This document shows, piece after piece, positions 25,677-41,888 of a stretch of DNA of 63,276 nucleotides; within the stretch, counting starts at the first letter, position 1, and every line of letters begins with the position of its first letter. Made by a program: the position numbers and the translations under genes. The DNA is from Pseudomonadota bacterium (GTDB taxonomy: Bacteria > Pseudomonadota > Alphaproteobacteria > Acetobacterales > Acetobacteraceae), in assembly GCA_018240405.1 (NCBI GenBank), contig JAFEFW010000002.1, forward strand, positions 1 through 63,276, given 5' to 3'. A model generated the notes under the pieces. The model made no database searches and was not told where the DNA came from. It saw nothing but the letters and a program-made list of their open reading frames with translations.

Positions 25677-25971
25677 GGTCAGGCTCCCGATCATGCGTGA
25701 CTACCGCAGTATGTCACATTGCGGCATTCAATCCGAAGCGCGGGCGGCCGGGTTTCCAGCTACCCCCCCCGCTCTTCGGCCAGATCCGCTGACAGCGCGC
25801 TATGCAACCGTCGCGCGCCTTGATGCCAGGGCTACCGGGGGCCGGGCGGTCATGGGCCAGGGGCGGAACGCCCGTTTGCCACAGGCCTCGAAGCGCTGAA
25901 CCTTCACCTGCCGGCCCGCCGCGCGCAGCGCATCAGTGCCCACGACGCGAACCGCCGCCGGCGCCCTCGGC

Positions 25972-27216
25972 TCATGTGCCAGTTTCGGCGGGCCGCTCCA
26001 TCACATACAGCCCGACATCAATGTTGCCGGCCCTGAAGCCGCCCTCGCAGTAGGCGAGGTAGTAGTCCCACATGCGCCGAAAGCGTTCGTCGAAGCCCTG
26101 GCGCTGCACCTCCGGCCAGGCGGCGTGGAAGCGCTGGCGCCATTCCGCCAGGGTCCGGGCGTAGGACGGTGCGAAGCGCTCCTCCGATCGCATCACCAGG
26201 CTAGCCTGCGCCACCTGCCGGCGCAGTTCGGTCACCGTGGGCAGCATGCCACCGGGGAAGATATAGTGCTGGATGAAGTCGGTGGCGCGCTTGTAGCCCT
26301 CAAACAGCGGTTCGGCGATGGTGATCGCCTGGATCACCGCCCGTCCGCCGGGCCGCAGCCGGTCATGCACCGCTCGGAAGTAGCTGGGCCAGTAGGCTTC
26401 GCCGACGGCTTCCAACATTTCGATCGAGACGATCCGGTCGAAGGCGCCATCCGCGTCGCGGTAGTCCTGCAGCCGCATGTCAGCCTGTGCCTGGTGCGCC
26501 GCCAGCCGCGCCTGCGCGGCCTCGAGCTGCGCCGGAGACAGCGTCAGCCCGGTAACGTGGCAGCCGCCGTCGCGGACCAGGCGCTCCGCCAGCCCACCCC
26601 AGCCGCAGCCGATTTCCAGAACCCGCTCGCCGCCGCGCAGATCCAGCAGCGCCAGGATGCGGTCCTGCTTGGTCGATTGCGCGGCTTCCAGCGTTGTCAC
26701 GCCATCGCCGTAGATCGCCGACGAGTAGCTCATGCCCTCGTCCAACCACAGGCGGTAGAAGTCGTTGCCGAGGTCATAGTGGCGGACGATGTTGCGCTTA
26801 CTGCCCTCTCTCGTGTTGGCATTGCGCCGATGCACTAACCGGTTGCGCAGGCGCTTCAGCCAGGTACCGTCGATCGCATCCGTGAGCGTCGGCATATTGC
26901 GCCCGGCCAGTTCGATCAGCGCCGGCAGGTCGGGGCTGTGCCAGTCGCCGTCCATGTAGGCCTCGGCAAAGCTGATGTCGCCCTGGAACAGCAGGCGACG
27001 CAGCGTGCGCCACCGGCGCAGCACCATGACGCCGTGTGGTCCGTTGGTCCGTTCCGGCACTGCGCTGCTGAGACGGAGGCCGGATGGTGTGACGATGGTC
27101 AGTGTGCCCGTCCGGATGCGCGACAGCAGCATGCGTGCCAGCGGCCGAGCCAGCCAGCCGATGCCGGGTCGTATCGCTGTGTTGTTTATTGCGCCATCGA
27201 ACGACAGGTCACTCAT
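25972..27216 (-). CDS. cfa: Cyclopropane-fatty-acyl-phospholipid synthase
   Basis: 414 residues. The C-terminal methyltransferase domain has the SAM-binding motif VLEIGCGWGGLAERLV, and the YDLGNDFYRLWLDEGMSYSSA segment is typical of Cfa. It adds a methylene group from S-adenosylmethionine across the double bond of membrane phospholipid acyl chains, which protects membranes from acid and oxidative stress. It is the third gene of the operon led by the flavin oxidoreductase and DUF1365 genes, the order often seen under ChrR/RpoE-type control. Confidence 0.93.
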   Translation of the reverse strand: MSDLSFDGAINNTAIRPGIGWLARPLARMLLSRIRTGTLTIVTPSGLRLSSAVPERTNGPHGVMVLRRWRTLRRLLFQGDISFAEAYMDGDWHSPDLPALIELAGRNMPTLTDAIDGTWLKRLRNRLVHRRNANTREGSKRNIVRHYDLGNDFYRLWLDEGMSYSSAIYGDGVTTLEAAQSTKQDRILALLDLRGGERVLEIGCGWGGLAERLVRDGGCHVTGLTLSPAQLEAAQARLAAHQAQADMRLQDYRDADGAFDRIVSIEMLEAVGEAYWPSYFRAVHDRLRPGGRAVIQAITIAEPLFEGYKRATDFIQHYIFPGGMLPTVTELRRQVAQASLVMRSEERFAPSYARTLAEWRQRFHAAWPEVQRQGFDERFRRMWDYYLAYCEGGFRAGNIDVGLYVMERPAETGT

Positions 27217-27260
27217 TGGTTCCAGCCATTGCCTCCCGGCACTCTGGGCAGTCTCGCCGG

Positions 27261-28034
27261 TTACCCTTGGGGGGTCGGGATGATGGTAACAGCCTGCGCC
27301 GGCGGTTCCGGCCGCGGCTGCATGCGAACGCCTTTCAGCCAGAGCTTCAGCGCCTCCCAGTGAATGGCGGCCAGAACCTTAAGAGACAACAACCCGTGCC
27401 GTGCGACAAGTCCAAGGAGTGCCCGGTCCGTCAGCGGCTGCCGTCGGCCAGCGAAGGAGGCGGCGATGATCCGACCTTCGGCGTCGTCACCGTTGATCAC
27501 CACGGCGGTCGTCTCACCCGGGGGAAGGACCCGGAAGTTGTAGATGATGTCCATCTGCAGGAAGGGCGAGACATAGAACGCCTTGGCGCAGTGCTGGCGG
27601 ATGACGCGTTGGCCGATTGCCTCCACGGGAATGAGGTAAGAGTGCCGCTGGCCGAACGTGTTGTTGACCTCGTACAGCAGTGCGGCGACCGACCCGTCGC
27701 GGCGGTGGCAGAAAAAGACGCTGAGCGGGTTAAACACATGGCCAAGAACGCGGGGCATGCACAAGACGCGGATGGGTCCGCCGTCCGGAACCAGTCCGGC
27801 ACCTGTCATTGCAGCTTCAACCTGAACACGTAGTGGCGCGGCTGGCGCGGCACCACGACCGAGGTGGTCACGGTCGTGGAAGCTGACCAGGTTGAAGCGG
27901 TTGCGGGAGAACAGGCGCGCCGTCGGCACCTCATCGAGGTCCAACAGCATCCAATCCATGCTGTAGCGAAGCCGGTGCCTGGTCGGGCGGAACCGCTGAT
28001 GCACGACAACCCCGGCGTACAGCGCTGAGGTCAT
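27261..28034 (-). CDS. DUF1365 family protein
   Basis: 257 residues. Typical features of this family are the start SALYAGVVVHQRFRP, the middle motif VFNPLSVFFCHRRDG, and EVNNTFGQRHSYLIP. The biochemical function is unsettled, but the family almost always lies between a flavin amine-oxidase-like gene and a cyclopropane synthase, and I infer a role in fatty-acid modification. It overlaps the upstream oxidoreductase gene by 4 bp. Confidence 0.92.
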   Translation of the reverse strand: MTSALYAGVVVHQRFRPTRHRLRYSMDWMLLDLDEVPTARLFSRNRFNLVSFHDRDHLGRGAAPAAPLRVQVEAAMTGAGLVPDGGPIRVLCMPRVLGHVFNPLSVFFCHRRDGSVAALLYEVNNTFGQRHSYLIPVEAIGQRVIRQHCAKAFYVSPFLQMDIIYNFRVLPPGETTAVVINGDDAEGRIIAASFAGRRQPLTDRALLGLVARHGLLSLKVLAAIHWEALKLWLKGVRMQPRPEPPAQAVTIIPTPQG

Positions 28035-29347
28035 GCGAACTCCAGCTCTGGGGCGGTCAGATGGATGCGCTTGCTTTCGCCGGCGACGGTCCAGGGCCGA
28101 CGGACCCCGCCAAGCTGTTCTGCCACCGCCAGCCCGGCCTGCAACCCGTCCTCATGGAAGCCGGCACCGAAATAGGCGCCGCAGAACCAGGTACGCTGGC
28201 GGCCCTGTAGCGACCACAGCCCGGACTGTGCCCGCATCGCCTCGGCGTCGAACTGTGGGTGGCGGTAGGTTTCCTCGTGCAGAACGGCATCGGGCCTCGG
28301 CGCAACCGCCGGATTCAACGTCACGAACAGCGGCGGCGCCTCCGGCAGGCCCTGCAGGCGATTCATCCAATAGGTCACGTGCAGGAGGTCGGCCTGGTCG
28401 CGCCGGCCGATATAATTCCAGCTTGCCCAAGCCGCCCGCCGCTTCGGCATCAGTGTCGCATCGCTGTGCAGCACCGCCCGGTTGGTGCTGTAACCGAAGG
28501 CGCTGAGCAGCGCCGTTTCGGCGTCCGTCGGGTCGTCCAGCATCGCCAGTGCCTGGTCCGCATGGCAGGCCAGCACGACATGATCGTGGCGTCGCACGGA
28601 TCCCGCTGTATTGCGCACGGCGACGCAATCGTACTCTCGGCGTATCTGTGCCACGCCCTGGCCGAGCCGCGTTTCGATCCCGGCCACCATCCGCTTGACG
28701 TAGTTGCGGGAGCCGCCATCGACGGTGCGCCAAAGCGGGCGCCCGCTGAACTTCAACAGTCCATGGTTCTCGCAAAAGCGGATGAAGTGTGCCGCTGGGT
28801 AATCCTGTAGTCGCATGGCCGAGGCAGACCAGATCGCCGCCGCCATGGGCAGCAGATGATCCTCCCGAAATGCAGCGCCGTAGCCATGTGCTGCCAGGAA
28901 CTCGCCGAGGCTGGTGGCCGGAGAGGCGTGTCGTGCCTGCGCCGGCGCTTGCAGGTAAAAGCGGCGCAGGTCGCGCAGCATGGACCAGAAGCGCGGCCGC
29001 GCGATATTGCGCCGCTGGGCAAACAACCCAAACAGATCGGTGCCGGCATATTCGGTGTGACCGCCATCCAGTGAGACGGCAAAGCTCATGTCCGAAGCCT
29101 TGGTGTTGACGCCCAGATGGGCGAACAGCGCCGTCAGATTGGGATAGGTCTGCTCGTTATAGACGATGAACCCGGTGTCGACGCTGCGCGGGCCGGCCGG
29201 CGTCTGCACGTCGACCGTGTTGCTGTGACCCCCTGGGCGCCGCTCTGCCTCATAAAGTGTGACCCGATGGCGCTGTTGCAGCAGCCAGGCGGCTGACAGA
29301 CCAGCGATCCCGCTGCCCACTACCGCGATATCCAAGCCAGCCGCCAT
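28031..29347 (-). CDS. NAD(P)/FAD-dependent flavin amine-oxidase-like protein
   Basis: 438 residues. The dinucleotide-binding fold is at the N-terminus (DIAVVGSGIAGLSAAWLL), followed by TLYEAERRPGGHSNTV, and the C-terminus WFCGAYFGAGFHEDGLQAG holds the FAD-closing segment. The family is flavoprotein oxidase/desaturase-like. First gene of the minus-strand operon, starting 39 bp downstream of the −10 of an ECF-type promoter. Homologues in singlet-oxygen regulons are linked to modification of phospholipid acyl chains; the reaction here is inferred, not shown. Confidence 0.9.
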   Translation of the reverse strand: MAAGLDIAVVGSGIAGLSAAWLLQQRHRVTLYEAERRPGGHSNTVDVQTPAGPRSVDTGFIVYNEQTYPNLTALFAHLGVNTKASDMSFAVSLDGGHTEYAGTDLFGLFAQRRNIARPRFWSMLRDLRRFYLQAPAQARHASPATSLGEFLAAHGYGAAFREDHLLPMAAAIWSASAMRLQDYPAAHFIRFCENHGLLKFSGRPLWRTVDGGSRNYVKRMVAGIETRLGQGVAQIRREYDCVAVRNTAGSVRRHDHVVLACHADQALAMLDDPTDAETALLSAFGYSTNRAVLHSDATLMPKRRAAWASWNYIGRRDQADLLHVTYWMNRLQGLPEAPPLFVTLNPAVAPRPDAVLHEETYRHPQFDAEAMRAQSGLWSLQGRQRTWFCGAYFGAGFHEDGLQAGLAVAEQLGGVRRPWTVAGESKRIHLTAPELEFA

Positions 29348-29385
29348 GCCATCCCCGTATCCGTCGCCGTGTTGTCACCCATCGT

Positions 29386-29412
29386 TTACGCCAACGCCAG
29401 CGTTTTGGATCA
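29386..29412 (-). promoter_or_regulatory. ECF-type promoter for the oxidoreductase–DUF1365–cfa operon
   Basis: On the minus strand TGATCC (29412–29407) is followed after exactly 17 bp by GTAA (29389–29386). This matches the form TGATCC-N16/17-(C)GTAA associated with RpoE–ChrR type sigma factors. It lies 39 bp before the flavin oxidoreductase start. Confidence 0.72.
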
Positions 29413-29429
29413 CCCGGGGGTGATCCAAA
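29404..29429. repeat. 26-bp inverted repeat joining two −35 elements
   Basis: TTTGGATCACCC, two bases, GGGTGATCCAAA: perfect 12-bp arms. Each arm contains the −35 hexamer TGATCC of a divergent promoter, so the two promoters share one symmetric core and their −35 ends are only 8 bp apart. Confidence 0.85.
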
Positions 29430-29447
29430 CGCGACGGACCGCCGTAT
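29421..29447 (+). promoter_or_regulatory. ECF-type autoregulatory promoter for the sigma/anti-sigma operon
   Basis: TGATCC (29421–29426), 17 bp, GTAT (29444–29447). It has the same spacing and near-identical elements as the divergent promoter, placed about 120 bp before the sigma-factor start. It implies that the sigma factor drives its own gene. Confidence 0.72.
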
Positions 29448-29566
29448 GGAGGAACGTGACCGCAACTTCTTTCCGGACCGCACCCCGTCCAGAGCCCCAC
29501 CAGAGCGCGTTTGTTGCGCCAAGGGGGGTGGTGCTGCCGTTTCGACATCGCATATTCCAGGTCAGC

Positions 29567-30142
29567 ATGAACCGCCCGCCTGCCGCGTCGGACGCTGCTG
29601 ACCATGCTGCGCTGATCCTCGCGATCGCGCAGCGGCAGGATCGCGCCGCATTTGCCACGCTGTTCGCCTACTTCGCCCCGCGGGTGAAAGCCTGGATGCT
29701 CCGCGCCGGCGTCCCGCCGACAGGTGCCGAGGAACTGGCGCAGGAAACCCTGCTGATGGTCTGGCGCAAGGCGAAGCTGTTCGATCCCGCGCGGGCCGGT
29801 GCCTCAACCTGGATCTTTGCCATCGCCCGCAACCTGCGGCTGGACGTGCTGCGGCGGGAGCGGCATCCCAGCGAACTGCTTGCCGAAGAGGCCGCTGATG
29901 AAGACGCTGAAACGGCGCCGGCGGCCGATCACGCCTTCGACCAGCGTGAGCGCGAGGTGCGCATACGCGCCGCTCTTGCGACTCTGCCGGTGGAGCAGGC
30001 GACGGTCATCCGCAAGGCGTTCTTTGAGGACAAGGCGCACGGCGACATTGAAAAGGAGCTTGGTATTCCCCTCGGAACCGTAAAATCCCGCATGCGGCTG
30101 GCGATGAACCGGCTGCGTGCCGCATTGGGTGATGTCGTATGA
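29567..30142 (+). CDS. rpoE: ECF sigma factor (RpoE/ECF11-like)
   Basis: 191 residues from the ATG at 29567; the frame is open upstream, but that DNA holds the promoter repeat. Region 2 is seen as LFAYFAPRVKAWMLRAGV through LAQETLLMVWRKAKLFDP and STWIFAIARNLRLDVLRRER. Region 4 is LPVEQATVIRKAFFEDKAHG and IPLGTVKSRMRLAMNRLRAA. It overlaps the ChrR-like anti-sigma gene by 4 bp, the hallmark of the group that responds to singlet oxygen in Rhodobacter. The symbol is by analogy with that group. Confidence 0.92.
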   Translation: MNRPPAASDAADHAALILAIAQRQDRAAFATLFAYFAPRVKAWMLRAGVPPTGAEELAQETLLMVWRKAKLFDPARAGASTWIFAIARNLRLDVLRRERHPSELLAEEAADEDAETAPAADHAFDQREREVRIRAALATLPVEQATVIRKAFFEDKAHGDIEKELGIPLGTVKSRMRLAMNRLRAALGDVV

Positions 30143-30768
30143 CGACCACCACCATCCGGCATCATCCGTCCGAAGCCACGCTGCTCGCCTACGCAGCCGG
30201 TACGCTGCCGGCGGCACTGGCCCTGGTGGCGGCGACGCATCTGGCGCGTTGCCCGGTGTGCCGTGACATGGTGGCCGCCGCCGAAGCGATAGGGGGAACC
30301 CTGCTGGACTCGTTGTCGCCGGCAGAGATGGAAGTCGATGTCGCCGCCGTCGATCAGGTCCTGGAACGTGCCGGACTGCCGCCTGCGGCGCCCGCGCCGG
30401 TGCTGCATCCTGATCTGGCGCCGCCGCTGAACCGCGTGCGCATGGGACGCTGGTGGCCAATCGGCCGCGGCGTCCGCTGGCGCCCGCTGCATGTCGGAGG
30501 CCGCGCCTGGGCAGGCCTGCTGCTCGCGCAGCCGGGTCGCTCGATACCCAGCCATGGCCACGCCGGGCTCGAGTTGACCTGCCTGCTTTCCGGCGGGTTC
30601 CGCGATGGCGGGGAGGAGTATGCCGCGGGTGACGTCGCTGAACCGGTCGGCGAGCACGATACGCCACCGGTTGCGATCGGCGCCGAACCATGCCTGTGTG
30701 TGGTGGGGTTTGAGGGCATGCGGTTCCACGGATGGCTCGGCCTCGCGCAGCGGCTTGGCCGATGGTGA
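30139..30768 (+). CDS. chrR: ChrR-type zinc anti-sigma factor with cupin domain
   Basis: 209 residues. The N-terminal zinc anti-sigma motif has His8/His9, His34, Cys38 and Cys41 (ATHLARCPVC), the same pattern as Rhodobacter ChrR. The C-terminal cupin keeps metal-ligand candidates His139, His141, Glu145 (PSHGHAGLE) and His173 (GEHDTPP). In the known system the N-domain holds the sigma factor and the cupin domain is needed for singlet-oxygen sensing. All expected ligands are present, so it should be functional. Confidence 0.93.
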   Translation: MTTTTIRHHPSEATLLAYAAGTLPAALALVAATHLARCPVCRDMVAAAEAIGGTLLDSLSPAEMEVDVAAVDQVLERAGLPPAAPAPVLHPDLAPPLNRVRMGRWWPIGRGVRWRPLHVGGRAWAGLLLAQPGRSIPSHGHAGLELTCLLSGGFRDGGEEYAAGDVAEPVGEHDTPPVAIGAEPCLCVVGFEGMRFHGWLGLAQRLGRW

Positions 30769-30926
30769 CGATGAAAGCGCGACCGGCGGCGGCGGCGCCG
30801 GCTTGGACCACGGACGGCGATGCGGCTGGCGAGACTGCGGCGGTGCAGCAGGTGTGCCGCGGGACGGCGTCCCGGCCGCGCGGTGAGCGGTGTCTTCCAC
30901 CGGCGGCAGCAGGCCGCGCGCATGGA

Positions 30927-31802
30927 ATGCGGAACTTGTTTCCGTCCGCTGCCCTGATGACGACGCTGCTGTCCGCCTGCTCGCCGGTCGGCTTGCTGAA
31001 TGCGACAGCGCCGACCGGCGGCGTGACGATCACGCACGACGTTTCGTATGGTACTGGACAGCGGCAGCACCTGGATATTTACGCGCCGTCCCTACAGAAC
31101 GCGCCAGTCGTCGTGTTCTTCTATGGCGGCGGCTGGACGGACGGCGACAAGGCGATGTACCGCTTCCTCGGCTCCGCCCTGGCCGCGCGCGGCTACCTGA
31201 CCGTGGTACCTGACTACCGGATCTACCCGGACGCGCGCTTTCCGGCCTTCGTCCAGGACGGCGCGGCGTCGGTTGCCTGGACACAGGCGAATATCGCCCG
31301 TTACGGCGGCGATCCGACGCGGATCGCGCTGCTTGGCCATTCCGCTGGCGCCCATACAGCGGCAATGCTGACGCTTGATCGACGGTGGCTGCGGGCTGAA
31401 GGCTTGGACCCGGATCGCAGCATTACGGCCATGGCCGGACTTGCGGGACCCTACGACTTCCTGCCGCTGAACGATCCGGAACTGGAGGCGATTTTTGCGC
31501 CGGCCGGCGACCTGCGCCTGACGCAACCGATCACCTTTGCCCGGGGCGACGCGCCGCCGCTGTTCCTCGCCACCGGCACGTCCGACACGACCGTCTGGCC
31601 GCGCAATACGCTGAACCTCGCGGCCGCAATCCGCCGGCAGGGCGGGCAGGTCGAGGTGGCCACCTATGCGGCCGCCAGCCACCGCCTGATTATCGGTGCC
31701 CTGGCCGGGCCGCTGCGCTGGACGGTGCCGGTTATGCGCGACGTCAGCCGGTTTCTCGACCACCACTTCGGCCGTCTCGCAGCGGATGTGGCGCATCCAT
31801 GA
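30927..31802 (+). CDS. Alpha/beta hydrolase lipoprotein
   Basis: 291 residues from the ATG at 30927. The N-terminus MRNLFPSAALMTTLLSAC has a lipoprotein-like signal with LLSAC. The fold is an esterase/carboxylesterase-type hydrolase: oxyanion segment VVFFYGGGWTDGD, nucleophile elbow LLGHSAGAHTA (GxSxG), a later acidic region LATGTSDTTV, and His in ASHRLII. It could release or edit acyl groups at the envelope. It lies 158 bp after chrR on the same strand and overlaps the DUF1295 gene by 4 bp. Confidence 0.88.
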   Translation: MRNLFPSAALMTTLLSACSPVGLLNATAPTGGVTITHDVSYGTGQRQHLDIYAPSLQNAPVVVFFYGGGWTDGDKAMYRFLGSALAARGYLTVVPDYRIYPDARFPAFVQDGAASVAWTQANIARYGGDPTRIALLGHSAGAHTAAMLTLDRRWLRAEGLDPDRSITAMAGLAGPYDFLPLNDPELEAIFAPAGDLRLTQPITFARGDAPPLFLATGTSDTTVWPRNTLNLAAAIRRQGGQVEVATYAAASHRLIIGALAGPLRWTVPVMRDVSRFLDHHFGRLAADVAHP

Positions 31803-32596
31803 TTGTGGCCTTCGTCCTCGCTGCCGTGTTGCTATCCGCGCTGATGGCAGGCGCCTGGGTGCTGGCGCAACGTACCGGGCAATCCGGATGGGTGGACGTG
31901 GTGTGGTCCTTCGCCCAGGGCGCTGCCGGCATACTGGTGGCGCTGGTACCCCTAAGCGGCGGCAGCGCGGGCTGGCGCCAGGTCACAGTCGCCGTCCTCG
32001 TTGGATTATGGTCGCTGCGGTTAGGGTTGCACATTGCCCAGCGGTCGAGGCACGGTCCGGAGGATGCGCGCTACGCCGCGCTGCGCCGGGAATGGGGCGC
32101 CAACTTTCCGCGCCGGCTATTCTGGTTCCTGCAGGTGCAGGCGGCGGCCGCCGCTTTGCTGACGCTGTCGATCCTGCTCGCCGCGCATAACCCGGCGCCA
32201 TTCCCCATGCCGCTGGATCTGCTTGGCGTGCTGGTCATGTTGGCCGCCATTGCCGGCGAAGGTATCGCAGACGAGCAATTGCGCCGGTTCAAGGCCAACC
32301 CCGCCAACAAGGGCCGCGTCTGTAACACCGGCCTGTGGGCGTGGTCGCGCCATCCCAACTACTTCTTCGAGTGGTTCGGCTGGATCGGCTATTTCCTGCT
32401 GGCGATCTCCGGCGGCTGGACCTGGGGCTGGCTGGCGCTGAGCGGGCCTGCATTCATGTATTTCCTGCTGGTCCATGTGTCGGGCATCCCGCTGACCGAG
32501 AAATTGATGCTGGAATCACGCGGCGAAGTCTTCGCCCGGTATCAAGCTCGCGTCAGTCCGTTCTTTCCGCTGCCGCCAAAGGATCGAGCCTCGTGA
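31799..32596 (+). CDS. DUF1295 (steroid 5-alpha-reductase-like) membrane protein
   Basis: 265 residues with about six hydrophobic segments. The C-terminal signature FKANPANKGRVCNTGLWAWS then RHPNYFFEWFGWIGYFLLA is that of the DUF1295/isoprenylcysteine-methyltransferase-like superfamily, whose members bind NADPH or SAM and act on lipids. It overlaps its neighbours by 4 bp on both sides, so it belongs to one operon with the hydrolase and the second Cfa-like gene. Substrate unknown. Confidence 0.9.
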   Translation: MIVAFVLAAVLLSALMAGAWVLAQRTGQSGWVDVVWSFAQGAAGILVALVPLSGGSAGWRQVTVAVLVGLWSLRLGLHIAQRSRHGPEDARYAALRREWGANFPRRLFWFLQVQAAAAALLTLSILLAAHNPAPFPMPLDLLGVLVMLAAIAGEGIADEQLRRFKANPANKGRVCNTGLWAWSRHPNYFFEWFGWIGYFLLAISGGWTWGWLALSGPAFMYFLLVHVSGIPLTEKLMLESRGEVFARYQARVSPFFPLPPKDRAS

Positions 32597-33621
32597 GCCT
32601 GATCACCGCCGCTACAAGCGTCATCGAGCGTGTGCCGATGCCCGACAGCGTCACATCGGCCGGCATCGCATATCTGGTTGGCCGCACGCGTCGGAGACTG
32701 GCGCGCGCTGGCGGCAAGGAGGCGGAGTTCGCCCGCCTGATGGCGCAGCATCCGATTGCCGTCCGTCCGGATGCGGCGAACGCGCAGCATTACGAGGTTC
32801 CCGCTGAGTTTTTCGGTCTCGTCCTTGGCCCGCGGCGCAAATATTCATGCTGTTTGTACGACGGGCGCACCACAACTCTGGCGATCGCAGAGGAACGGGC
32901 GCTGGCCGAAACAGCTGCCCACGCGGCGCTGGCGGATGGTCAGGATGTGCTTGAACTCGGCTGCGGCTGGGGCTCGTTAAGTCTGTGGATGGCTGAACAT
33001 TTTGCCGGCTCGCACATCACCGCCGTATCGAACTCCCATTCGCAGCGTGCGTATATCGAGGCCCAGGCACGGGAGAGGGGCCTGACCAACCTGCGTGTCG
33101 TCACTGCTGACATGAATGACTTCGATGCCGGCGCATCGTTCGACCGAGTGGTTTCGGTCGAAATGTTTGAGCACATGACCAACTGGCGAGCGCTGCTGCG
33201 GCGGATTCATGCATGGCTGCGGCCGGATGGGCGCCTGTTCCTGCATGTGTTCAGCCATCACTCGGCACCGTACCTGTTCGACATGGGCGATCAGGAGGAC
33301 TGGATCGCGCAGCACTTCTTCACCGGCGGCATTATGCCCAGCCATGGCCTGCTTTGGCACGTGACAGAGCAATTCGATGTCGAACAGGATTGGCGCTGGG
33401 GCGGCCTGCATTACGCACGCACCGCCCGGGACTGGCTGGGCAATTTTGACCGCAACGAAGATCGCGTGATGAACCTGTTACGAAAGGTGTATGGAGCCGA
33501 CGCGGCATTATGGAAGCGGCGCTGGCGGCTGTTCTTCCTGGCGACAGCAGGGCTGTTCGGGCACGCCGACGGCGCCGAGTGGGGTGTGAGTCATTACCTG
33601 CTACAACCCCGATGCACCTGA
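32593..33621 (+). CDS. Cfa-like SAM-dependent methyltransferase (second copy)
   Basis: 342 residues from a GTG at 32593 that overlaps the previous stop as GTGA. The SAM motif is VLELGCGWGSLSLWMAEHF, followed by ITAVSNSHSQRAYIEAQA and VVSVEMFEHMTNWRALL. It belongs to the same COG as cyclopropane synthase but lacks the long N-terminal domain of the 25.9-kb copy. In Rhodobacter a comparable short enzyme methylates unsaturated phospholipid acyl chains on the way to furan fatty acids; that role here is inferred. Confidence 0.9.
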   Translation: MSLITAATSVIERVPMPDSVTSAGIAYLVGRTRRRLARAGGKEAEFARLMAQHPIAVRPDAANAQHYEVPAEFFGLVLGPRRKYSCCLYDGRTTTLAIAEERALAETAAHAALADGQDVLELGCGWGSLSLWMAEHFAGSHITAVSNSHSQRAYIEAQARERGLTNLRVVTADMNDFDAGASFDRVVSVEMFEHMTNWRALLRRIHAWLRPDGRLFLHVFSHHSAPYLFDMGDQEDWIAQHFFTGGIMPSHGLLWHVTEQFDVEQDWRWGGLHYARTARDWLGNFDRNEDRVMNLLRKVYGADAALWKRRWRLFFLATAGLFGHADGAEWGVSHYLLQPRCT

Positions 33622-34012
33622 GGCTGCTCCGCCCAGGGCTTCAACATCCGTTCCCGGATCGGGGCATCGGCAACCGGGCATCGAGCGTTTCGAGTCTGGT
33701 CTGTACCAGGAGACGGTCAAGGGCATCCGCTTCGATTAAGCCACGATACTTTCAAAAGAGGCCAGACAGAAGCGTGGTAACGGACCCGGATGGTTGATCG
33801 CCGAATCGGTGACTGCCTACCACTCAAGCCGGTGCCACTTTCGGTGTAGGCAAATTCTGATAACGACTTTTATTGCCGACGGTAGGCTAGTCAAGACAAG
33901 TCCTTGTGTCGTTCTTTATATGTATCACATTCCCGGCACGGCCCTTCCTGCCTGTCCAGCTGTACTCTAGTTGCTCTCCTACAGTTTGCCTTTTAGCACA
34001 GAGGAACGGCCT
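33622..34012. other. Intergenic region with no gene seen
   Basis: About 390 bp. The second half (33840–33960) is AT-richer and may hold a promoter. A near-palindrome GACAAG-TC-CTTGTGTC lies around 33894–33910. A GAGGA ribosome-binding site at 34001–34005 serves the next gene. Confidence 0.4.
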
Positions 34013-35302
34013 TTGCGGCACGAACCCGACATCTCTCGACCTCCACCTCAACGAACGTCGCACGATCCTCATTACGTTCCGGACTATGATGTTGCGATCG
34101 TGGGCGGCGGCTTCAGCGGAACGTGTGCTGCTATCCTGCTCAGCCGTCAGGGACTGCGTGTAGCGGTTGTCGATCTGCACGCGGATTACCCACCAGATTT
34201 TCGAGCGGAACACCTGGACGGGGCGCAGATCGACCAACTGGAGCGCCTGGGCCTGTTGGCAGGGCTTACGGCGGGTGTGCAGCGGGGCGACAGTGTCGTT
34301 TGCGGGCGCCGCGGCAGGACTCTGGGCTGCTGGCCCACAATCAACTACGGCCTGTCCTATGACCGGCTGGTCAACATGGCGCGCGCGATGCTGCCGCCAA
34401 CGGTGGTTCGCATCTTTGGCAAGGTGATCGCCGCCAGTACCAATGCGGCAAGGCAACAGATACACCTGGCCGATGGCCGGCGGCTGACCGCCCGGTTGCT
34501 GGTCATCGCCACGGGCCTTAGCCCGGGCTTTGCCCGAGCGCTGGGGATGCGCCGGGTCATGCTGCACAAGGCGCATTCGCTGACGTTTGGGTTCAACCTG
34601 CAGCCCATCGGCAGACCAGACTTTGAACATAGTTTCTATGTGTATGAAGGTGAAAGTCTTGCTGAAAGAATTGATTACATCTCGGTATTTCGGCTTGGTG
34701 ATGAGACGCGGGCCAACCTGTTCACCTTCGCCGACCACCACGGCGCACGCGCGGCCGCTTTCCGAACCTGTCCGACACAGGCGCTGCGGGACGCGCTGCC
34801 TGGCTTGGCACGTGTGATAGGCGAATATTGCGTCAGCGGGCCGGTCGTGGCGCGGCCGATGGATCTGTATGTAACGGAAGGATACCGCCAGCCGGGCGTC
34901 GTGTTGATCGGGGACGCGTTCCAGACGGCATGTCCGGCCGCCGGAGCCGGCATTGCACGCGCCCTCATCGACGTGGAGCGGCTGTGCTGCGTGCACATTC
35001 CGCAATGGTTGCAGGCAAATCGTACTGACCGGACAATGATAGAGCAATTCTACGATGATCCGGTGAAAATGAGCAGCGATGCAAAGGCGCTGCATGATTC
35101 GAGGTATCGGCGTCTCCATGCGACGCAGCCCGGCTTCTCTTGGGCGCTTCACCGGCAGCAGGTCCACCTTCGTCGCCGCGTTCATGGCTGGGCGTTGCGG
35201 CAGAAGCTGGCGCTGCGTACGATGCGTGAGCGTGTTGCCGCGCCTTCGGCCGACGCAGGCGACGAACTGGCTTCCGGTGAGGGTGTGGCAGCGCAGCGCT
35301 GA
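34013..35302 (+). CDS. FAD-dependent oxidoreductase (group A monooxygenase-like)
   Basis: 429 residues from a TTG at 34013 with GAGGA 7 bp upstream; an upstream TTG at 33971 is possible. The Rossmann motif is YDVAIVGGGFSGTCAAILLS and the FAD-ribityl motif is VLIGDAFQTACPAAGAGIARA, as in para-hydroxybenzoate-hydroxylase-type flavoproteins and halogenases. Around residues 200–235 the codons turn markedly AT-rich (FEHSFYVYEGESLAERIDYI) compared with the rest. It lies just after the lipid-modification operon and may act on the same lipids or on a pigment; unproven. Confidence 0.82.
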   Translation: MRHEPDISRPPPQRTSHDPHYVPDYDVAIVGGGFSGTCAAILLSRQGLRVAVVDLHADYPPDFRAEHLDGAQIDQLERLGLLAGLTAGVQRGDSVVCGRRGRTLGCWPTINYGLSYDRLVNMARAMLPPTVVRIFGKVIAASTNAARQQIHLADGRRLTARLLVIATGLSPGFARALGMRRVMLHKAHSLTFGFNLQPIGRPDFEHSFYVYEGESLAERIDYISVFRLGDETRANLFTFADHHGARAAAFRTCPTQALRDALPGLARVIGEYCVSGPVVARPMDLYVTEGYRQPGVVLIGDAFQTACPAAGAGIARALIDVERLCCVHIPQWLQANRTDRTMIEQFYDDPVKMSSDAKALHDSRYRRLHATQPGFSWALHRQQVHLRRRVHGWALRQKLALRTMRERVAAPSADAGDELASGEGVAAQR

Positions 35303-35502
35303 CTGAAGGTCACCATCCATTGCCGGTTCGTCAGAGCGCGGTTTCGACGACTGGCCATAGCCGTCGCGCACCGGCGCCCCTGCAACATTCTGCTGCCGCT
35401 TTTCACGCGCGTCTGCCATAACAGCCGTCCAGCGCGGTTCGCCGCCGGTCGATGGCTGACGCGTGAGGTGACCATAATTGTAATGACCATCCAGCAACAG
35501 CG

Positions 35503-36066
35503 ATGGCCGTGATGCTGAGGTGGCTTCGGGCCTACATCGCCGACGACGATCCCTACGTCGGGGCAGCCAACTTTATTGCCGTGATGCTGGCGTGGAACCA
35601 GCCCTACTATCCCCTGTACCTCTGGTGGATTGTCGGCCGCGACGCCTGGGTTGCGGCGCCGTTCGCCGTGGCTTTTTTCCCGTTCTTTGCCATTCCCGCC
35701 ATCACCCGGCGTGCCCCGCTGCTCGGCAAGATGACATTGGTCGTCGTCGCTACCGTCAACATCGTCTTCTGTTCCGCTATGTTGGGCGAGGCGGCCGGTA
35801 TCCAATTGCTCTACCTGCCCTGTGGTATGCTGGCGGCAATTCTATATCCGTGGCGGGAGCGTATGGTCATGCTCGTGATGACCGGGCTGCCGCTTGTGGT
35901 CTGGTTGCTGACGCGGGAGCGGTTCGACCATCCGCCGGTGCGCTTCACGCCGGAGGCGTATGCCTCGTTGTTTACACTGAATGCCGTCAGTGCCGGCCTG
36001 CTGATCATCCTGTTCGGCTGGCTCCTTGCCGGGATTGGCCGGGCGAGCAAGCCATCATGCGGATGA
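35503..36066 (+). CDS. Polytopic membrane protein, unknown
   Basis: 187 residues with five or six hydrophobic segments (for example FIAVMLAWNQPYYPLYLWWI, MTLVVVATVNIVFCSAML, LLIILFGWLLAGIG). The N-terminus VMLRWLRAYIADDDPYVGAA is amphipathic. No catalytic motif is visible; the shape resembles membrane sensor or anchor domains, but no output domain follows. It lies between the FAD oxidoreductase and the desaturase on the same strand. Confidence 0.7.
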   Translation: MAVMLRWLRAYIADDDPYVGAANFIAVMLAWNQPYYPLYLWWIVGRDAWVAAPFAVAFFPFFAIPAITRRAPLLGKMTLVVVATVNIVFCSAMLGEAAGIQLLYLPCGMLAAILYPWRERMVMLVMTGLPLVVWLLTRERFDHPPVRFTPEAYASLFTLNAVSAGLLIILFGWLLAGIGRASKPSCG

Positions 36067-36247
36067 CGACCCTGGCTTGGCAGCAGCCGGTCGGACGCCC
36101 CGGGGCCTCACGTTTTTGCTAGTAATCCAGTGGTTTCCATGCGGACACGGATCAGGCATAAGTCCGCCACCGACAGTGTGCTTCGGGGCGCCGCCCGACG
36201 GGCGAGGCAGCCGGACCCTTGGCGGACAACCGCCCGAAAGGTTAGCC

Positions 36248-37267
36248 GTGTTGCCTTCGCCTGTCGCCGCCTCCCGGGCTGTCCGGCTTGCGCTGCCTGC
36301 CGCCGTGGACCGCCGCCGTATCGTGTGGTCCTACGCCGTCACGGTTGGCCTTTATCACCTGCTGGCATTGCTCGCGCTGCTGCCCTGGATGTTCAGTTGG
36401 ACCGGCGTCGTGCTGGCTTTGGTCGGCACCTACGTGTTCGGTGGTCTTGGCATTAACCTGGGTTTTCATCGCCTGCTGACGCATCGTGGCTTTTCCTGCC
36501 CTAAATGGCTTGAGCATGCCTGCGTCATTGTTGGCGTCTGCTGCGTGCAGGACACGCCGGCTCGTTGGGTCGCCGTCCATCGCCGTCACCATGAGCAAGC
36601 GGACCTGCGCGATGACCCCCATAGTCCGCTGGCTGGGTTTCTTTGGGGCCATGCCGGCTGGATGCTGGTGGAAAATCGTGATCTGGCCCGGCTGGGCATT
36701 TACGACCGCTATGCCAAGGACGTTTTGCGGGACCCGTTTTACCGGCGGTTGGAGCGCTCGCTGCTTTACCCGGCCATTGTCCTGGCTTCCTGGGTGCTAT
36801 TCTTCCTGTGTGGTGCGGTTGCCAGCCTCGCCGGTGGCGGAACCCTGGCGGATGCAGCGCAATTCGGTGCCAGCGTGCTGGTCTGGGGCGTCTTCGTTCG
36901 GACCATCGCAGTCTGGCATATTACCTGGTCCGTCAATTCGGCTGCTCACCTTTGGGGGTACCGCAGCTATGAGACGGCGGAGCAGAGCCGCAACAACTGG
37001 GTCGTCGCCCTGTTAAGCAACGGAGAGGGCTGGCACAACAACCATCACGCGCAGCCGCGCGCGGCTCGGCATGGTCATCGGCCCTGGGAGATTGACGGAA
37101 TTTTCGGTGTGGTGCGGGTCCTGGAGGCTATGGGCCTGGTATGGGATGTGGTGCGGCCTGATCCGAAGCTTGTTGCTGCCGCAGCCCAACGTGCCGCCAT
37201 GTCGGCTGGCTGTTCGGACGACGGCCACCGTGCATTGCAAGAGCCGACAAGGGATGCGGGACTATAA
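36248..37267 (+). CDS. Fatty-acid desaturase (delta-9 type)
   Basis: About 339 residues from a GTG at 36248 with AAAGG upstream; the frame is open further back. All three histidine boxes of membrane di-iron desaturases are present: HRLLTH, HRRHHEQAD and HNNHHAQPR. Four hydrophobic segments lie around them. It should introduce a cis double bond, probably delta-9, into acyl-lipid or acyl-CoA. A monounsaturated chain is the substrate both for cyclopropane synthesis and for methylation by Cfa-like enzymes, so this gene fits the locus. Confidence 0.9.
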   Translation: MLPSPVAASRAVRLALPAAVDRRRIVWSYAVTVGLYHLLALLALLPWMFSWTGVVLALVGTYVFGGLGINLGFHRLLTHRGFSCPKWLEHACVIVGVCCVQDTPARWVAVHRRHHEQADLRDDPHSPLAGFLWGHAGWMLVENRDLARLGIYDRYAKDVLRDPFYRRLERSLLYPAIVLASWVLFFLCGAVASLAGGGTLADAAQFGASVLVWGVFVRTIAVWHITWSVNSAAHLWGYRSYETAEQSRNNWVVALLSNGEGWHNNHHAQPRAARHGHRPWEIDGIFGVVRVLEAMGLVWDVVRPDPKLVAAAAQRAAMSAGCSDDGHRALQEPTRDAGL

Positions 37268-37678
37268 ATCGGGCTGGTAGGCGCGCGAGCCCGGTGGTCG
37301 GAATCCTGGTCCGCCCGGGAGCCAGGCCGCTTTCTTGTGAAGGCGACTAGAAATCCCCGCCTCGGAGTCCTGGCCGCGCAGCCAACGCGTCCTTCATAGA
37401 AGGTGATATCGGATCATCGCCGCATCGACCGTTTTTGTGACGTTGCGCTGACCGGCTTAATCCGGCGTGACAGGCCGCAAATGCGCGGGTATTGTGCGCT
37501 GCAACAGGCGAGTTGATCTGCTACTTTAAATTGTGACAGACTGCCGCCACAACTCTAGGCTTCATTACGAGTGCTTGACCCGATTCGGCCTGTCGCTTGA
37601 TGCGCCGCAACGACGCAGCCTCACTAGCGGAGCATAGACCGGTCTCGCACCAATGCCACGCAAGACAGGACTGAATCC
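37268..37678. other. Intergenic region with no gene seen
   Basis: 411 bp before DUF3141. A relatively AT-rich patch (CTACTTTAAATTGTGAC, around 37520) may be promoter. No clear FNR, FixK or paired Pho box was found. Confidence 0.4.
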
Positions 37679-40126
37679 ATGACCAAAACGGCCCGTGATA
37701 GCGGCACAGCCTGGTTCGGTGCCTGCGGACCCGCCACCATGCCGACGAACTTTATCGCCGATTACTGGATCGACGCTGTTCAGCGTTCCATTCTGTTCCT
37801 CGACGTGCTGCGTCAGCGCGGCAACATTGCGCGCGCGCACAATGCGCGCGAAGCGCCTCACGTCCTGCACTACAAAGCTGAGATTCTGATCGATGGCCGC
37901 ACGCTGGAGCGCCCGGTCAACTACGCGCTGGTCCGCATCATTCCGCCGCCGGGAACGCATACTGATCCTCACCGGCGCCCGTTCATTGTCGTGGACCCGC
38001 GCGCCGGGCACGGTCCTGGCATTGGCGGCATGAAGCAGGACAGTGAGATCGGTGTGGCGTTGAACGCCGGGCATCCCTGTTATTTCGTCGGCTTCCTTCC
38101 CAATCCGGTGCCTGGCCAGACGGTCGAGGATGTTTGCCGGGCGGAAGCGCTGTTCGTAAAGCAGGTAGCGGAGCGCCACCCGGACGCCGAGGGCAAACCG
38201 GTGCTGATCGGCAACTGCCAAGCCGGGTGGCAATTGATGATGATGGCCGCGGTCAACCCCGACCTGTGCGGCCCGATCATGCTGGCCGGATCGCCACTGT
38301 CATACTGGGCTGGGGTGCGTGGCAAGAACCCGCTTCGCTATTTGGGCGGCCTCCTCGGCGGCACCTGGCTTACGGCTCTTGCCGGGGACCTCGGCGCCGG
38401 CATTTTCGACGGCGCGGACCTGGTACGCAATTTTGAGCAGATGAACCCGGCCAACACGGTCTGGCAAAAGCCTTACAATGTCTACGCCAAGGTGGACACG
38501 GAGGCGGAACGCTTCCTCGACTTCGAGACCTGGTGGGGCAGTCCGGTTCTGCTGAATGCCGGGGAAATGCAGTGGATCGCTGACAACCTGTTCGTTGGCA
38601 ACAAGCTGACTGCCGGGACGCTGCACACCAGCGACGGCGTGCGCATTGATCTGCGCAATATCCGCTCCCCTATCGTTGTGTTCTGCTCCTGGGGCGATGA
38701 CATCACGCCGCCGCAGCAGGCGCTGGGCTGGATTACCGACCTGTACGACGAGGATCGGGAGATCGTCGCCAATGGGCAGACAATCGTCTATACTCTGCAC
38801 CAGAGCATTGGCCACCTGGGTATCTTTGTCTCCGGCAAGGTGGCGACGCGCGAGCATCAGGAATTTGCCAGCGCCATGGACATGATCGACCTGGCGCCAC
38901 CCGGCCTGTACGAGGCCGTTATCACCGATGTGGGCGAGGACACCGAAAATCCCGAGCTGATTCAGGGTCGCTACCTGTTCCGGCTGGAGCATCGCTCACT
39001 GGCTGACATTCGTGCCTTGGGCAACAACGACCCCGAGGACCAGCTTCGTTTCGCAACTGCCGCGCGGGTATCGGATGCCAATCTGGCACTGTATCAGACC
39101 ACGCTGGCACCGCTTGTGCGGGCGGCGACGACAGCGCAGTCGGCCGAGGCGCTGCGCGCTCTGCACCCTGCGCGACTGCGTTTCGACCTGTTCTCGGACC
39201 AGAACCCCTTGATGCAGCCGGTGAAACTGCTGGCGGAGCAGGTGCGGGAGAACCGCCAGCCCACGCCGGCCGATAACCCTCTTCTGGCCATGGAGCGCAT
39301 GGCATCCGACTGGATGGTCACCTGCCTCAATACCGCGGCCGCGGCCCGTGACTCGATTCAGGAGCAGGTGTTCCTGTCGACCTATGGTGCCCCTTGGCTG
39401 CAAGCCCTCATGGGCTTCGGCCCGGATGCGGTGAAAACCCTGCAACGGGCTGACCACGACGTGCTGCGGGAGGCGAACGAAGCGCGCTTGCGCGCGGAAC
39501 TGGAAACCCAGTTCCAGACCGGCGGTCTGACCGACGCCATCATTCGGGCGTTGATCTACATCCGGATGCCCGAACGCAGCATCGATGAACGCGGTTACAA
39601 CATGGCCAAGGCGCTGCATGACCGTCAGCCGGCGGGCGTTCGGCTCCGCCTGCCGGCGCTGAAGGCGGCGTTCCGCGATCAGTACCTGTTGCTGCTGCTC
39701 GACGAGGCGCGGGCGGTGCAGGCCATACCGGACCTGCTGCCGAACGATCCGGCCGCGAGGCGCGATGCATTGGATGGAATCCAGGACGTTCTCACGGCGT
39801 CCGGTAGCCTGTCGGCCGAAGCGGCACGACGCCTGGCGGAGATCAAGGCGCTGTTCGTTCCCGTGACATTGCCTGCCACGTCAGACTCTGCCGCTGCGCC
39901 GGAGATGGCGCCGCTGGCGACCGCACAGTCCGGCCCGGCGCCATCGATCCCGGTACGGCCCGCGCCAGAAACCGGTCCCCCGGGCGCGGCGGCACCGGCC
40001 GGCCGGCCAACGCCATCCGGCGAAAAAACCGTACAACAGGCCCGCGGCACGTCAGCTCCGATCAGGACGGCAGCGCCCGCGCCATCCGTCCGCCGGAACC
40101 GGACGCCGGGTCGGAAAGCGAAGTAG
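37679..40126 (+). CDS. DUF3141 domain protein (PHA-synthase-like alpha/beta hydrolase)
   Basis: 815 residues. The N-terminal two-thirds resembles poly-hydroxyalkanoate synthase and related alpha/beta hydrolases: RPFIVVDPRAGHGPGIGGMK, PVLIGNCQAGWQLMMMA (nucleophile elbow with Cys in GNCQAG), FCSWGDDITPPQQALGW and HQSIGHLGIFVSG with a conserved His. The C-terminal 90 residues are low-complexity Ala/Pro. The family is named DUF3141 and its activity is not settled. It is the first gene of a tight four-gene cluster with a phosphotransacylase, FabI and acetate kinase. Confidence 0.9.
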   Translation: MTKTARDSGTAWFGACGPATMPTNFIADYWIDAVQRSILFLDVLRQRGNIARAHNAREAPHVLHYKAEILIDGRTLERPVNYALVRIIPPPGTHTDPHRRPFIVVDPRAGHGPGIGGMKQDSEIGVALNAGHPCYFVGFLPNPVPGQTVEDVCRAEALFVKQVAERHPDAEGKPVLIGNCQAGWQLMMMAAVNPDLCGPIMLAGSPLSYWAGVRGKNPLRYLGGLLGGTWLTALAGDLGAGIFDGADLVRNFEQMNPANTVWQKPYNVYAKVDTEAERFLDFETWWGSPVLLNAGEMQWIADNLFVGNKLTAGTLHTSDGVRIDLRNIRSPIVVFCSWGDDITPPQQALGWITDLYDEDREIVANGQTIVYTLHQSIGHLGIFVSGKVATREHQEFASAMDMIDLAPPGLYEAVITDVGEDTENPELIQGRYLFRLEHRSLADIRALGNNDPEDQLRFATAARVSDANLALYQTTLAPLVRAATTAQSAEALRALHPARLRFDLFSDQNPLMQPVKLLAEQVRENRQPTPADNPLLAMERMASDWMVTCLNTAAAARDSIQEQVFLSTYGAPWLQALMGFGPDAVKTLQRADHDVLREANEARLRAELETQFQTGGLTDAIIRALIYIRMPERSIDERGYNMAKALHDRQPAGVRLRLPALKAAFRDQYLLLLLDEARAVQAIPDLLPNDPAARRDALDGIQDVLTASGSLSAEAARRLAEIKALFVPVTLPATSDSAAAPEMAPLATAQSGPAPSIPVRPAPETGPPGAAAPAGRPTPSGEKTVQQARGTSAPIRTAAPAPSVRRNRTPGRKAK

Positions 40127-40127
40127 A

Positions 40128-41096
40128 ATGCCTGACGATCGCCCCGTGCTGCCGGCTGCTCCGCGGCATGAGAAGTACGCCCGCCTGGTGGAAGCTGCGC
40201 AGGCCCTGCCCGTGACTCGCATGGCCATCGCGCATCCCTGCGATCAGGTCTCACTGGAAAGCGCCGTTGAGGCGGCAAAGCTCGGGCTGATCGCGCCGAT
40301 CCTGGTAGGGCCGCCGGACCGGATCAGGGACGTCGCCGCGCGCTGGAACCTTGACATCAACGGGATGCCCATCGTCGCCGCGGAGCACAGCCATGATTCG
40401 GCGGCGAAGGCGGTCGAGCAGGTGCGTTGTGGCGCCGCCGAGGCGCTGATGAAGGGCAGCCTGCACACCGATGAGCTGATGGCCGCCGTCGTTTCGAAGA
40501 CGGACGGCATCCGTACCGGACGCCGCATCAGCCACTGCTTTATCATGGACGTGCCGAACCACGCCGATCCACTGATCATCACGGACGCCGCCGTCAACAT
40601 CGCGCCGACGCTCGATGAGAAGGTGGACATCATCCAGAATGCGATCGACCTCGCGCACGCCATCGGCTTCCCCGAGGTGCGCGTCGCCATCCTTAGCGCG
40701 ATGGAGACAGTGACGTCGAAAGTGCCCTCAACGGTCGAGGCGGCGGCGCTGTGCAAGATGGCGGAGCGCGGGCAGATCAAGGGTGGCCTGCTCGACGGTC
40801 CGCTGGCCCTGGACAACGCCATCAGCGTGGAGGCCGCGGCCATCAAGGGCATCGTGTCGAAAGTGGCTGGCCATGCCAATGTGCTTGTCGTGCCGGACCT
40901 GGAGGCAGGCAACATGCTGGCGAAGAGCCTGTCCTTTCTCGCCGGCGCCGACGCGGCCGGCATCGTGCTTGGGGCGCGGGTGCCGATCGTGCTGACAAGC
41001 CGGGCGGACACGCTGGTGACGCGGCTGGCGTCCTGCGCCGTGGCGGCGCTGGTGGCCGAGGCGCGCCGGGCGAGCGCGTCGATCATGGGGGATTGA
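40128..41096 (+). CDS. pta: Phosphate acetyl/butyryltransferase family
   Basis: 322 residues. Recognisable regions of the PTA/PTB family are AAKLGLIAPILVGPPDRIRD, AAEALMKGSLHTDELMAAV, and the C-terminal VLVVPDLEAGNMLAKSL with GADAAGIVLGARVPIVLTSR. It interconverts an acyl-CoA and acyl phosphate; whether acetyl or butyryl is not certain. It begins 2 bp after the DUF3141 stop and pairs with acetate kinase two genes on. Confidence 0.92.
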   Translation: MPDDRPVLPAAPRHEKYARLVEAAQALPVTRMAIAHPCDQVSLESAVEAAKLGLIAPILVGPPDRIRDVAARWNLDINGMPIVAAEHSHDSAAKAVEQVRCGAAEALMKGSLHTDELMAAVVSKTDGIRTGRRISHCFIMDVPNHADPLIITDAAVNIAPTLDEKVDIIQNAIDLAHAIGFPEVRVAILSAMETVTSKVPSTVEAAALCKMAERGQIKGGLLDGPLALDNAISVEAAAIKGIVSKVAGHANVLVVPDLEAGNMLAKSLSFLAGADAAGIVLGARVPIVLTSRADTLVTRLASCAVAALVAEARRASASIMGD

Positions 41097-41101
41097 CCGG
41101 T

Positions 41102-41881: not shown

Positions 41882-41888
41882 GCACGCC

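Follow-up and report, generated by a model that had tools for sequence, protein, structure and literature searches.

In Rhodopseudomonas palustris, RPA2571 (ufaD), RPA2570 (ufaO) and RPA2569 (ufaM) are necessary and sufficient for the formation of the monomethyl furan fatty acid 9M5-FuFA (PMC7380195). UfaO is a DUF1365 protein, and the oxygen of the furan ring comes from O2 (PMC7380195). FufM (RPA0924) then converts 9M5-FuFA to the dimethyl form, 9D5-FuFA (PMC7380195). Here we describe a locus with the same enzyme set in an Acetobacteraceae bacterium (GenBank assembly GCA_018240405.1, a 7.4-Mb draft). It occupies positions 25972-37267 of a 63,276-nucleotide stretch of contig JAFEFW010000002.1, and this whole stretch is referred to below as the window. 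The order ufaD-ufaO-ufaM is the same as in R. palustris. The locus tags put fufM apart from ufaDOM in that organism, whereas in the window fufM, a DUF1295 gene, rpoE and chrR face ufaDOM across a single promoter region. We consider the locus to be a system for dimethyl furan fatty acids under sigmaE/ChrR control, with a probability of roughly 85% judging from its sequence.

The other system suitable for comparison is the sigmaE-ChrR regulon of Rhodobacter sphaeroides. It also has an extracytoplasmic function (ECF) sigma factor of the ECF11 type, a ChrR with the same metal ligands and furan genes under sigmaE control (PMC6852236, PMC7380195). It differs in that the RSP1087-1091 operon does not include ufaM (RSP2144); 9D5-FuFA was made there when R. 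palustris fufM was supplied. The chemistry and control suggested below for the window would follow these two reports, and our own evidence consists of gene content, gene order, motif conservation, co-occurrence and fold matches. The locus itself can be described as a variant of this known type of system; it is well conserved, and its pathway has been described before. The first-pass annotation of this DNA, which saw in it singlet-oxygen lipid remodelling with furan fatty acid genes and an ECF-type promoter, read it rightly in this respect. All eleven genes that it named are there with open frames, at the positions it gave or close to them.

Furan genes and the sigma/ChrR pair

Conservation was assessed in 80 named FufM loci. 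They are the top-ranking ones among at least 583 confirmed relatives, for which twelve aligned FufM-type proteins served as the query. Since the best matches were taken, this sample is biased to close relatives. The loci include flanks of up to 7 kb per side, some of them ending at contig ends. DUF1295 was found in 69 loci, UfaD and UfaO in 61 each, RpoE in 46 (some of these being distant ECF sigma matches only), UfaM in 40, ChrR in 38, a membrane protein in 33 and a hydrolase in 25 (at least one match being weak). An FAD oxidoreductase and a fatty acid desaturase, also present in the window, were found in none. In addition, 120 genomes of the family were scored with E-value cut-offs of 1e-90 for ufaD, 1e-30 for FufM, desaturase and oxidoreductase and 1e-5 for the membrane protein. 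ufaD matches were present in 43 of them, and FufM accompanied ufaD in 32/43 genomes versus 1/77 genomes lacking ufaD. Nine of the eleven genes occur together repeatedly across alphaproteobacteria, and the conserved locus comprises 25972-33621 and 35503-36066 of the window.

By both families and order, the jointly encoded CMAS methylase, FAD desaturase and DUF1365 protein correspond to UfaM, UfaD and UfaO. The second CMAS-family gene lies in a frame spanning 32485-33621(+), where the GTG at 32593, which overlaps the DUF1295 stop codon, is the likelier start. Its product shares 30% identity with UfaM (226 residues aligned) and 59% with a homologue from Rhodopseudomonas sp. B29. Both genes had been taken for Cfa-type enzymes in the first-pass annotation. 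Membership of the CMAS family is confirmed for both, and the cyclopropane type is the less likely reading for the second one, as coclaurine-type N-methyltransferases are closest to it. The ten solved sequences that match it best (E 9e-59 to 2e-40) are all N-methyltransferases; where a substrate is named, it is of the coclaurine, pavine or protoberberine type, and the rest are unspecified. The best solved cyclopropane synthase follows with E 2e-22. If the protein were an ordinary cyclopropane synthase, as its CMAS family match (Table 1) would allow, the locus would make cyclopropane together with monomethyl furan lipid. This is very improbable, as the protein scores 136 bits against the cyclopropane-synthase cut-off of 400 (though UfaM itself reaches 266) and the N-methyltransferases are far closer, and we rejected it. 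The simplest view is that the gene codes for a FufM-type furan methylase: it is CMAS-related, distinct from UfaM and near the coclaurine-type enzymes. This closeness fits FufM, which has a plant counterpart in AT4G33110 (38% identity; PMC10940516). With a FufM-type second methylase, the locus is predicted to yield dimethyl furan lipid, a product already known.

The overlapping rpoE and chrR frames code for a group IV sigma factor and an adjoining ChrR-type zinc anti-sigma factor with both metal sites. ChrR scores 128.8 bits with NCBIfam TIGR02451 (cut-off 124.5). Its ligands, H8/H9, H34, C38, C41 and H139, H141, E145, H173, were paired by eye with H6, H31, C35, C38, H141, H143, E147 and H177 of R. 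sphaeroides ChrR (PMC6852236). The earlier identification of an ECF11-like sigma factor next to a ChrR with all metal ligands is therefore upheld by Pfam, TIGR02451 and the eight ligand residues.

Two copies of the motif TGATCC-N16-CGTA are located between ufaD and rpoE. The TGATCC on the rpoE side is an inverted copy of that on the ufaD side, and the two sites point apart. We checked 61 ufaD upstream regions, 280 bp each, from the named loci. The motif was present in 29 of the 35 regions with sigma/ChrR in the locus (defined as a sigma match at 45% identity or more plus a ChrR match inside the fetched locus) versus 1/26 without (Fisher p 2e-10), and in 23 of the 61 it was found in both directions. 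Its background elsewhere in the same loci is 0.008 per 280 bp. In four of the six exceptions among the 35 (L087, L088, L089, L106), the motif stands immediately in front of rpoE; the other two (L091, L097) have a near miss ending in CGTT. The motif was derived from the loci themselves and not from a published consensus, which does not affect the background figure. Its presence both ways in the window and the counts in relatives are what can be expected of a cognate promoter of the ECF11 sigma/ChrR pair, and we regard the sites as putative sigmaE promoters.

Where no close sigma/ChrR pair lies in the fetched stretch (L082, L083, L095, L103, L104 and others, 26/61 in total), the furan clusters are probably under another regulator or none, as they nearly always lack the motif.

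In the proposed scheme, singlet oxygen would cause the loss of ChrR, and the released sigmaE would activate both of the diverging promoters in the ufaD-rpoE gap. The ufaD-ufaO-ufaM products would methylate C18:1 chains of phospholipids, desaturate the methylated chain and close the furan ring with O2. The rpoE-chrR-hydrolase-DUF1295-fufM operon would add the second methyl group; in many relatives the membrane protein gene comes next. Furan lipids are destroyed by singlet oxygen, and ChrR turnover was proposed to follow from lipid peroxidation (PMC6852236).

Table 1. Features of the furan fatty acid locus and its surroundings in the window.
Feature	Position	Strand	Basis and remarks
ufaM, S-adenosylmethionine-dependent acyl methylase (CMAS family)	25972..27216	-	Pfam CMAS, E 1.2e-80; third gene of operon
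ufaO, DUF1365, predicted furan-forming oxygenase	27261..28034	-	Pfam DUF1365, 7.3e-77
ufaD, predicted FAD-dependent desaturase of methylated acyl chain	28031..29347	-	Pfam Amino_oxidase, 9.9e-24
ECF11-type promoter-like site into ufaD, TGATCC-N16-CGTA	29387..29412	-	sequence and conservation
ECF11-type promoter-like site into rpoE, TGATCC-N16-CGTA	29421..29446	+	sequence and conservation
rpoE, ECF11-like sigma factor	29567..30142	+	Pfam Sigma70_r2 and r4
chrR, zinc anti-sigma factor	30139..30768	+	ChrR cupin (Pfam); TIGR02451; eight metal-ligand positions filled
alpha/beta hydrolase, lipoprotein-like signal, BD-FAE/LipQ-like	30930..31802	+	Pfam BD-FAE, 2e-30
DUF1295 membrane protein, steroid-reductase/ICMT-type fold	31799..32596	+	Pfam 3.6e-67; fold matches
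fufM-type methylase	32593..33621	+	CMAS, 5.9e-40; putative GTG start
insertion particular to own genome, outside conserved locus	33622..35502	+	fufM-membrane protein spacing; 0/80 loci; G+C
UbiH/geranylgeranyl-reductase-like FAD oxidoreductase	33971-35302	+	FAD_binding_3, 5.3e-14
stand-alone six-helix membrane protein, MASE7-like	35503..36066	+	Pfam MASE7, 8.4e-9; conserved fufM partner
DesA-like fatty acid desaturase, neighbour here only	36248..37267	+	FA_desaturase, 7.7e-21

Several points weigh against the assignment of the locus to a sigmaE/ChrR-controlled dimethyl furan system. The motif count is not independent, because the CGTA half was read off the same loci, and sigma/ChrR control is not universal given the 26 clusters mentioned above. 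The FufM assignment stands on similarity and neighbourhood, and the cyclopropane-synthase cut-off alone cannot single out FufM since UfaM also falls below it. Co-transcription of the membrane protein gene with fufM is not assured here because the insertion separates them. Of the 19 other members of the genus with the desaturase, 17 have fufM (p 0.04, own genome included), a faint sign that the desaturase is perhaps not wholly unrelated to fufM. Finally, all p-values given here ignore kinship.

DUF1295 and the membrane protein as companions of fufM

The DUF1295 gene, whose start overlaps the end of the hydrolase gene, is frequent in FufM loci (see above) and was found in 1 of the 12 ufaD loci without FufM. 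A profile search recovered it in 16/16 loci examined. It is therefore a genuine member of the locus which tracks fufM. Its best fold matches are tied between the steroid 5-alpha-reductase type and ICMT. Across 26 sequences N187 and D158 are invariant and E191 is at least 90% conserved, and the PNY-x-x-E stretch aligns, weakly (E 0.003), with PNYLGE of the 5-alpha-reductase 7c83. We take the protein to be a probable membrane reductase that uses NAD(P)H. It may instead have no reductase activity and act as an assembly factor or, in keeping with the related ICMT fold, as a methyltransferase. We find this possible but doubtful in view of the conserved N187, D158 and E191 and the alignable PNY-x-x-E stretch, the alignment reaching only E 0.003.

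Expression of R. palustris fufM in R. sphaeroides gave 9D5-FuFA (PMC7380195), which fits a role of DUF1295 outside the synthesis, provided that R. sphaeroides lacks a DUF1295 of its own. The term DUF1295 has 0 occurrences in the available text of PMC7380195. Its strain table includes a deletion of the fufM neighbour RPA0923, perhaps a DUF1295 gene like the one in Rhodopseudomonas sp. B29, with no outcome given in the Results text. In the literature searched, part of it accessible only as excerpts, there was no tie of DUF1295, DUF2177 or the MASE7 protein to furan fatty acids; an earlier mention elsewhere is possible.

The membrane protein consists of 187 amino acids and has the six-helix domain fold of class III cyclases (Rv1625c type). 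It terminates without a catalytic domain, so it shares the fold and cannot be a cyclase. Its identity with the membrane domain of the adenylyl cyclase Rv1625c (7yzk) is 18%. By this analogy, it is probably a stand-alone acyl-lipid-binding domain and a candidate for such a function. The protein was found in 19/120 family genomes, all of them having both FufM (p 1e-13) and ufaD, so it is also a genuine member of the locus which tracks fufM. The suggestion that it travels with the sigma/ChrR block thus stood, in so far as 19/19 family genomes having it also have fufM.

The hydrolase encoded upstream of DUF1295 also matches Abhydrolase_3 and has a lipobox-like LLSAC, read by eye.

The FAD oxidoreductase and the desaturase

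The first-pass annotation went on to propose that the desaturase, the methylases and the FAD oxidoreductase constitute a self-contained desaturate-methylate-oxidise pathway, possibly to an undescribed fatty acid. The genes do adjoin in the window, 17/19 other congeners with the desaturase have fufM, as mentioned above, and some FAD oxidoreductase homologues have thiolase or acyl-CoA dehydrogenase genes close by. However, both genes are missing from the fetched stretch of all 80 named FufM loci. The co-occurrence with the sigma/ChrR block expected for them was thus seen for the membrane protein and not for the oxidoreductase at 34013 or the desaturase. The oxidation step is already covered, since UfaD and UfaO are known oxidising enzymes (PMC7380195).

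The genus set consists of 34 genomes, own included; these are drafts, so a contig break between two neighbours is possible in single cases. FufM is present in 26 of them; 11 have the FAD oxidoreductase and 20 the desaturase. None of the ten congeners with the oxidoreductase has it on the fufM contig, and five of the ten have no fufM match at all; the desaturase is likewise never on the fufM contig (0/19). An ECF-type motif was sought before 34013 and 36248 as well, and none was found within 300 bp, the best matches having 4 and 3 mismatches in 10. Together with the presence of the desaturase in just 5 of the 43 family genomes with ufaD, this makes a self-contained pathway most improbable, and the new route was rejected.

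fufM and the membrane protein gene are separated in the window by 1,881 bp with the FAD oxidoreductase inside. Of the other family genomes, 18 have the membrane protein, and in 16 of these its match begins no more than 65 bp from the fufM match on the same strand (compared by hand). The two exceptions are G002, where the two matches sit at the ends of separate contigs, and G053, with only a weak match on another contig. In three further congeners, G139, G124 and G131 (L171-L173), the two matches are within 75 bp; G139 has its oxidoreductase homologue on another contig. The G+C content falls to 0.57 at 33700-34299, compared with 0.61-0.71 over 25900-33699, and the rest of the insertion has about 0.63, like the membrane protein and desaturase genes beyond. 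No repeats bracketing the insertion were found at its ends. When its DNA was compared with 60 relatives, 11 had a match (own included), most of them within the FAD oxidoreductase; two short matches of 39 and 53 query columns fall just past it. A promoter and terminator scan of 33400-37800 gave counts close to those of shuffled sequences (1 vs 1.1 and 6 vs 4.3).

The FAD oxidoreductase was found in 4/120 family genomes, among which only the own genome has ufaD. The neighbours of its homologues (39 chosen frames) are mixed and include solute-binding proteins, thiolases and acyl-CoA dehydrogenases. Those of the desaturase homologues (24 chosen frames) are mixed as well, with glutathione transferase in four. 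No furan-gene family was found at E 1e-8 in either set. No second instance of either gene being placed beside the furan locus was seen in the alphaproteobacterial loci compared. Both the FAD oxidoreductase and the desaturase look like passengers which arrived later and do not belong to the pathway.

The desaturase match lies in the frame 36026-37267(+), and three histidine boxes, HRLLTH, HRRHH and HNNHH, are retained (by eye). It was detected in 9/120 family genomes, 5 of them with ufaD. Since only 5/43 family genomes with ufaD have it, the desaturase is not generally needed, and we rejected it as the required source of the monoenoic substrate. The absence of FabA could have been an argument for it: no protein above the TIGR01749 cut-off was found in the own genome. 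This argument falls because none of the 120 family genomes passes either; 108 of them have weak matches, and the FabA control passes this cut-off in 2/14 cases. For the window itself the main gain is therefore a correction: the pathway is a known one and the two proposed genes seem to be bystanders.

An antisense frame at 35303-35502, where the two short DNA matches fall, resembles the start of another protein and is perhaps debris of the insertion. In congener G099 the desaturase is in two pieces in different frames (L066 7135-8050), due either to gene decay or to an assembly slip. Further on, 37679-43073 codes for a DUF3141 protein, a phosphate acetyl/butyryltransferase and an acetate kinase in a row, seemingly unrelated to the locus.

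Possible lipid sensing and links to other singlet-oxygen genes

The remaining interest is in DUF1295 and the membrane protein as undescribed companions of fufM. The route from a singlet-oxygen event in the membrane to the loss of the cytoplasmic ChrR was stated to be an open need (PMC6852236). The membrane protein, usually encoded beside fufM and sharing its fold with a domain reported to be a C18:1 fatty-acid receptor, is a candidate for this link. The reductase-like DUF1295 tied to the furan methylase offers a concrete gene for the same question.

We speculate that the fufM side may form a lipid-sensing and repair module with an acyl-chain receptor, an enone reductase and the furan acting as a renewable quencher, though we regard this as unlikely. 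Singlet oxygen turns furan into an ene-dione. DUF1295 could reduce the latter with NAD(P)H, as would suit a steroid-reductase-like protein, and the resulting 1,4-diketone could close to furan again. The membrane protein, an Rv1625c-type domain without cyclase, would sense the condition of C18:1 or furan chains, and could in this way help to link membrane lipid oxidation to ChrR turnover.

Some of these families recur in a green alga. Table 5 of PMC4067076 ranks by induction 104 SAK1-dependent singlet-oxygen genes of Chlamydomonas, with CFA1 in row 2, CFA2 in row 11, DUF1365 in row 18, DUF2177 in row 22 and DUF1295 in row 25. CFA2 is named coclaurine N-methyltransferase in Table 9 of the same paper. 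These are nuclear genes under SAK1 control and not an operon, and their likeness to the window is by family names only. A 2021 review connects algal CFA genes to furan fatty acids as work under way (PMC8491031). In the speculative view given above, the presence of DUF1295 and DUF2177 families among the algal genes would point to one shared response. The parallel makes the same families candidates in algae.

DUF2177 itself occurs in relatives of the window locus as well as among the Chlamydomonas singlet-oxygen genes. It is also a frequent operon neighbour of heliorhodopsin genes, which is another link to light (PMC11109279).

Among the 53 loci without the membrane protein directly after fufM, 35 were used to hand-pick 35 frames beside fufM for a family scan. 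A photolyase (L108 8163-9548) and a BLUF blue-light sensor (L146 7817-8365) were each found once, their assignment to frames being judged from the sequences as the scan gave family counts only. Their location near fufM is in keeping with a light-stress setting.

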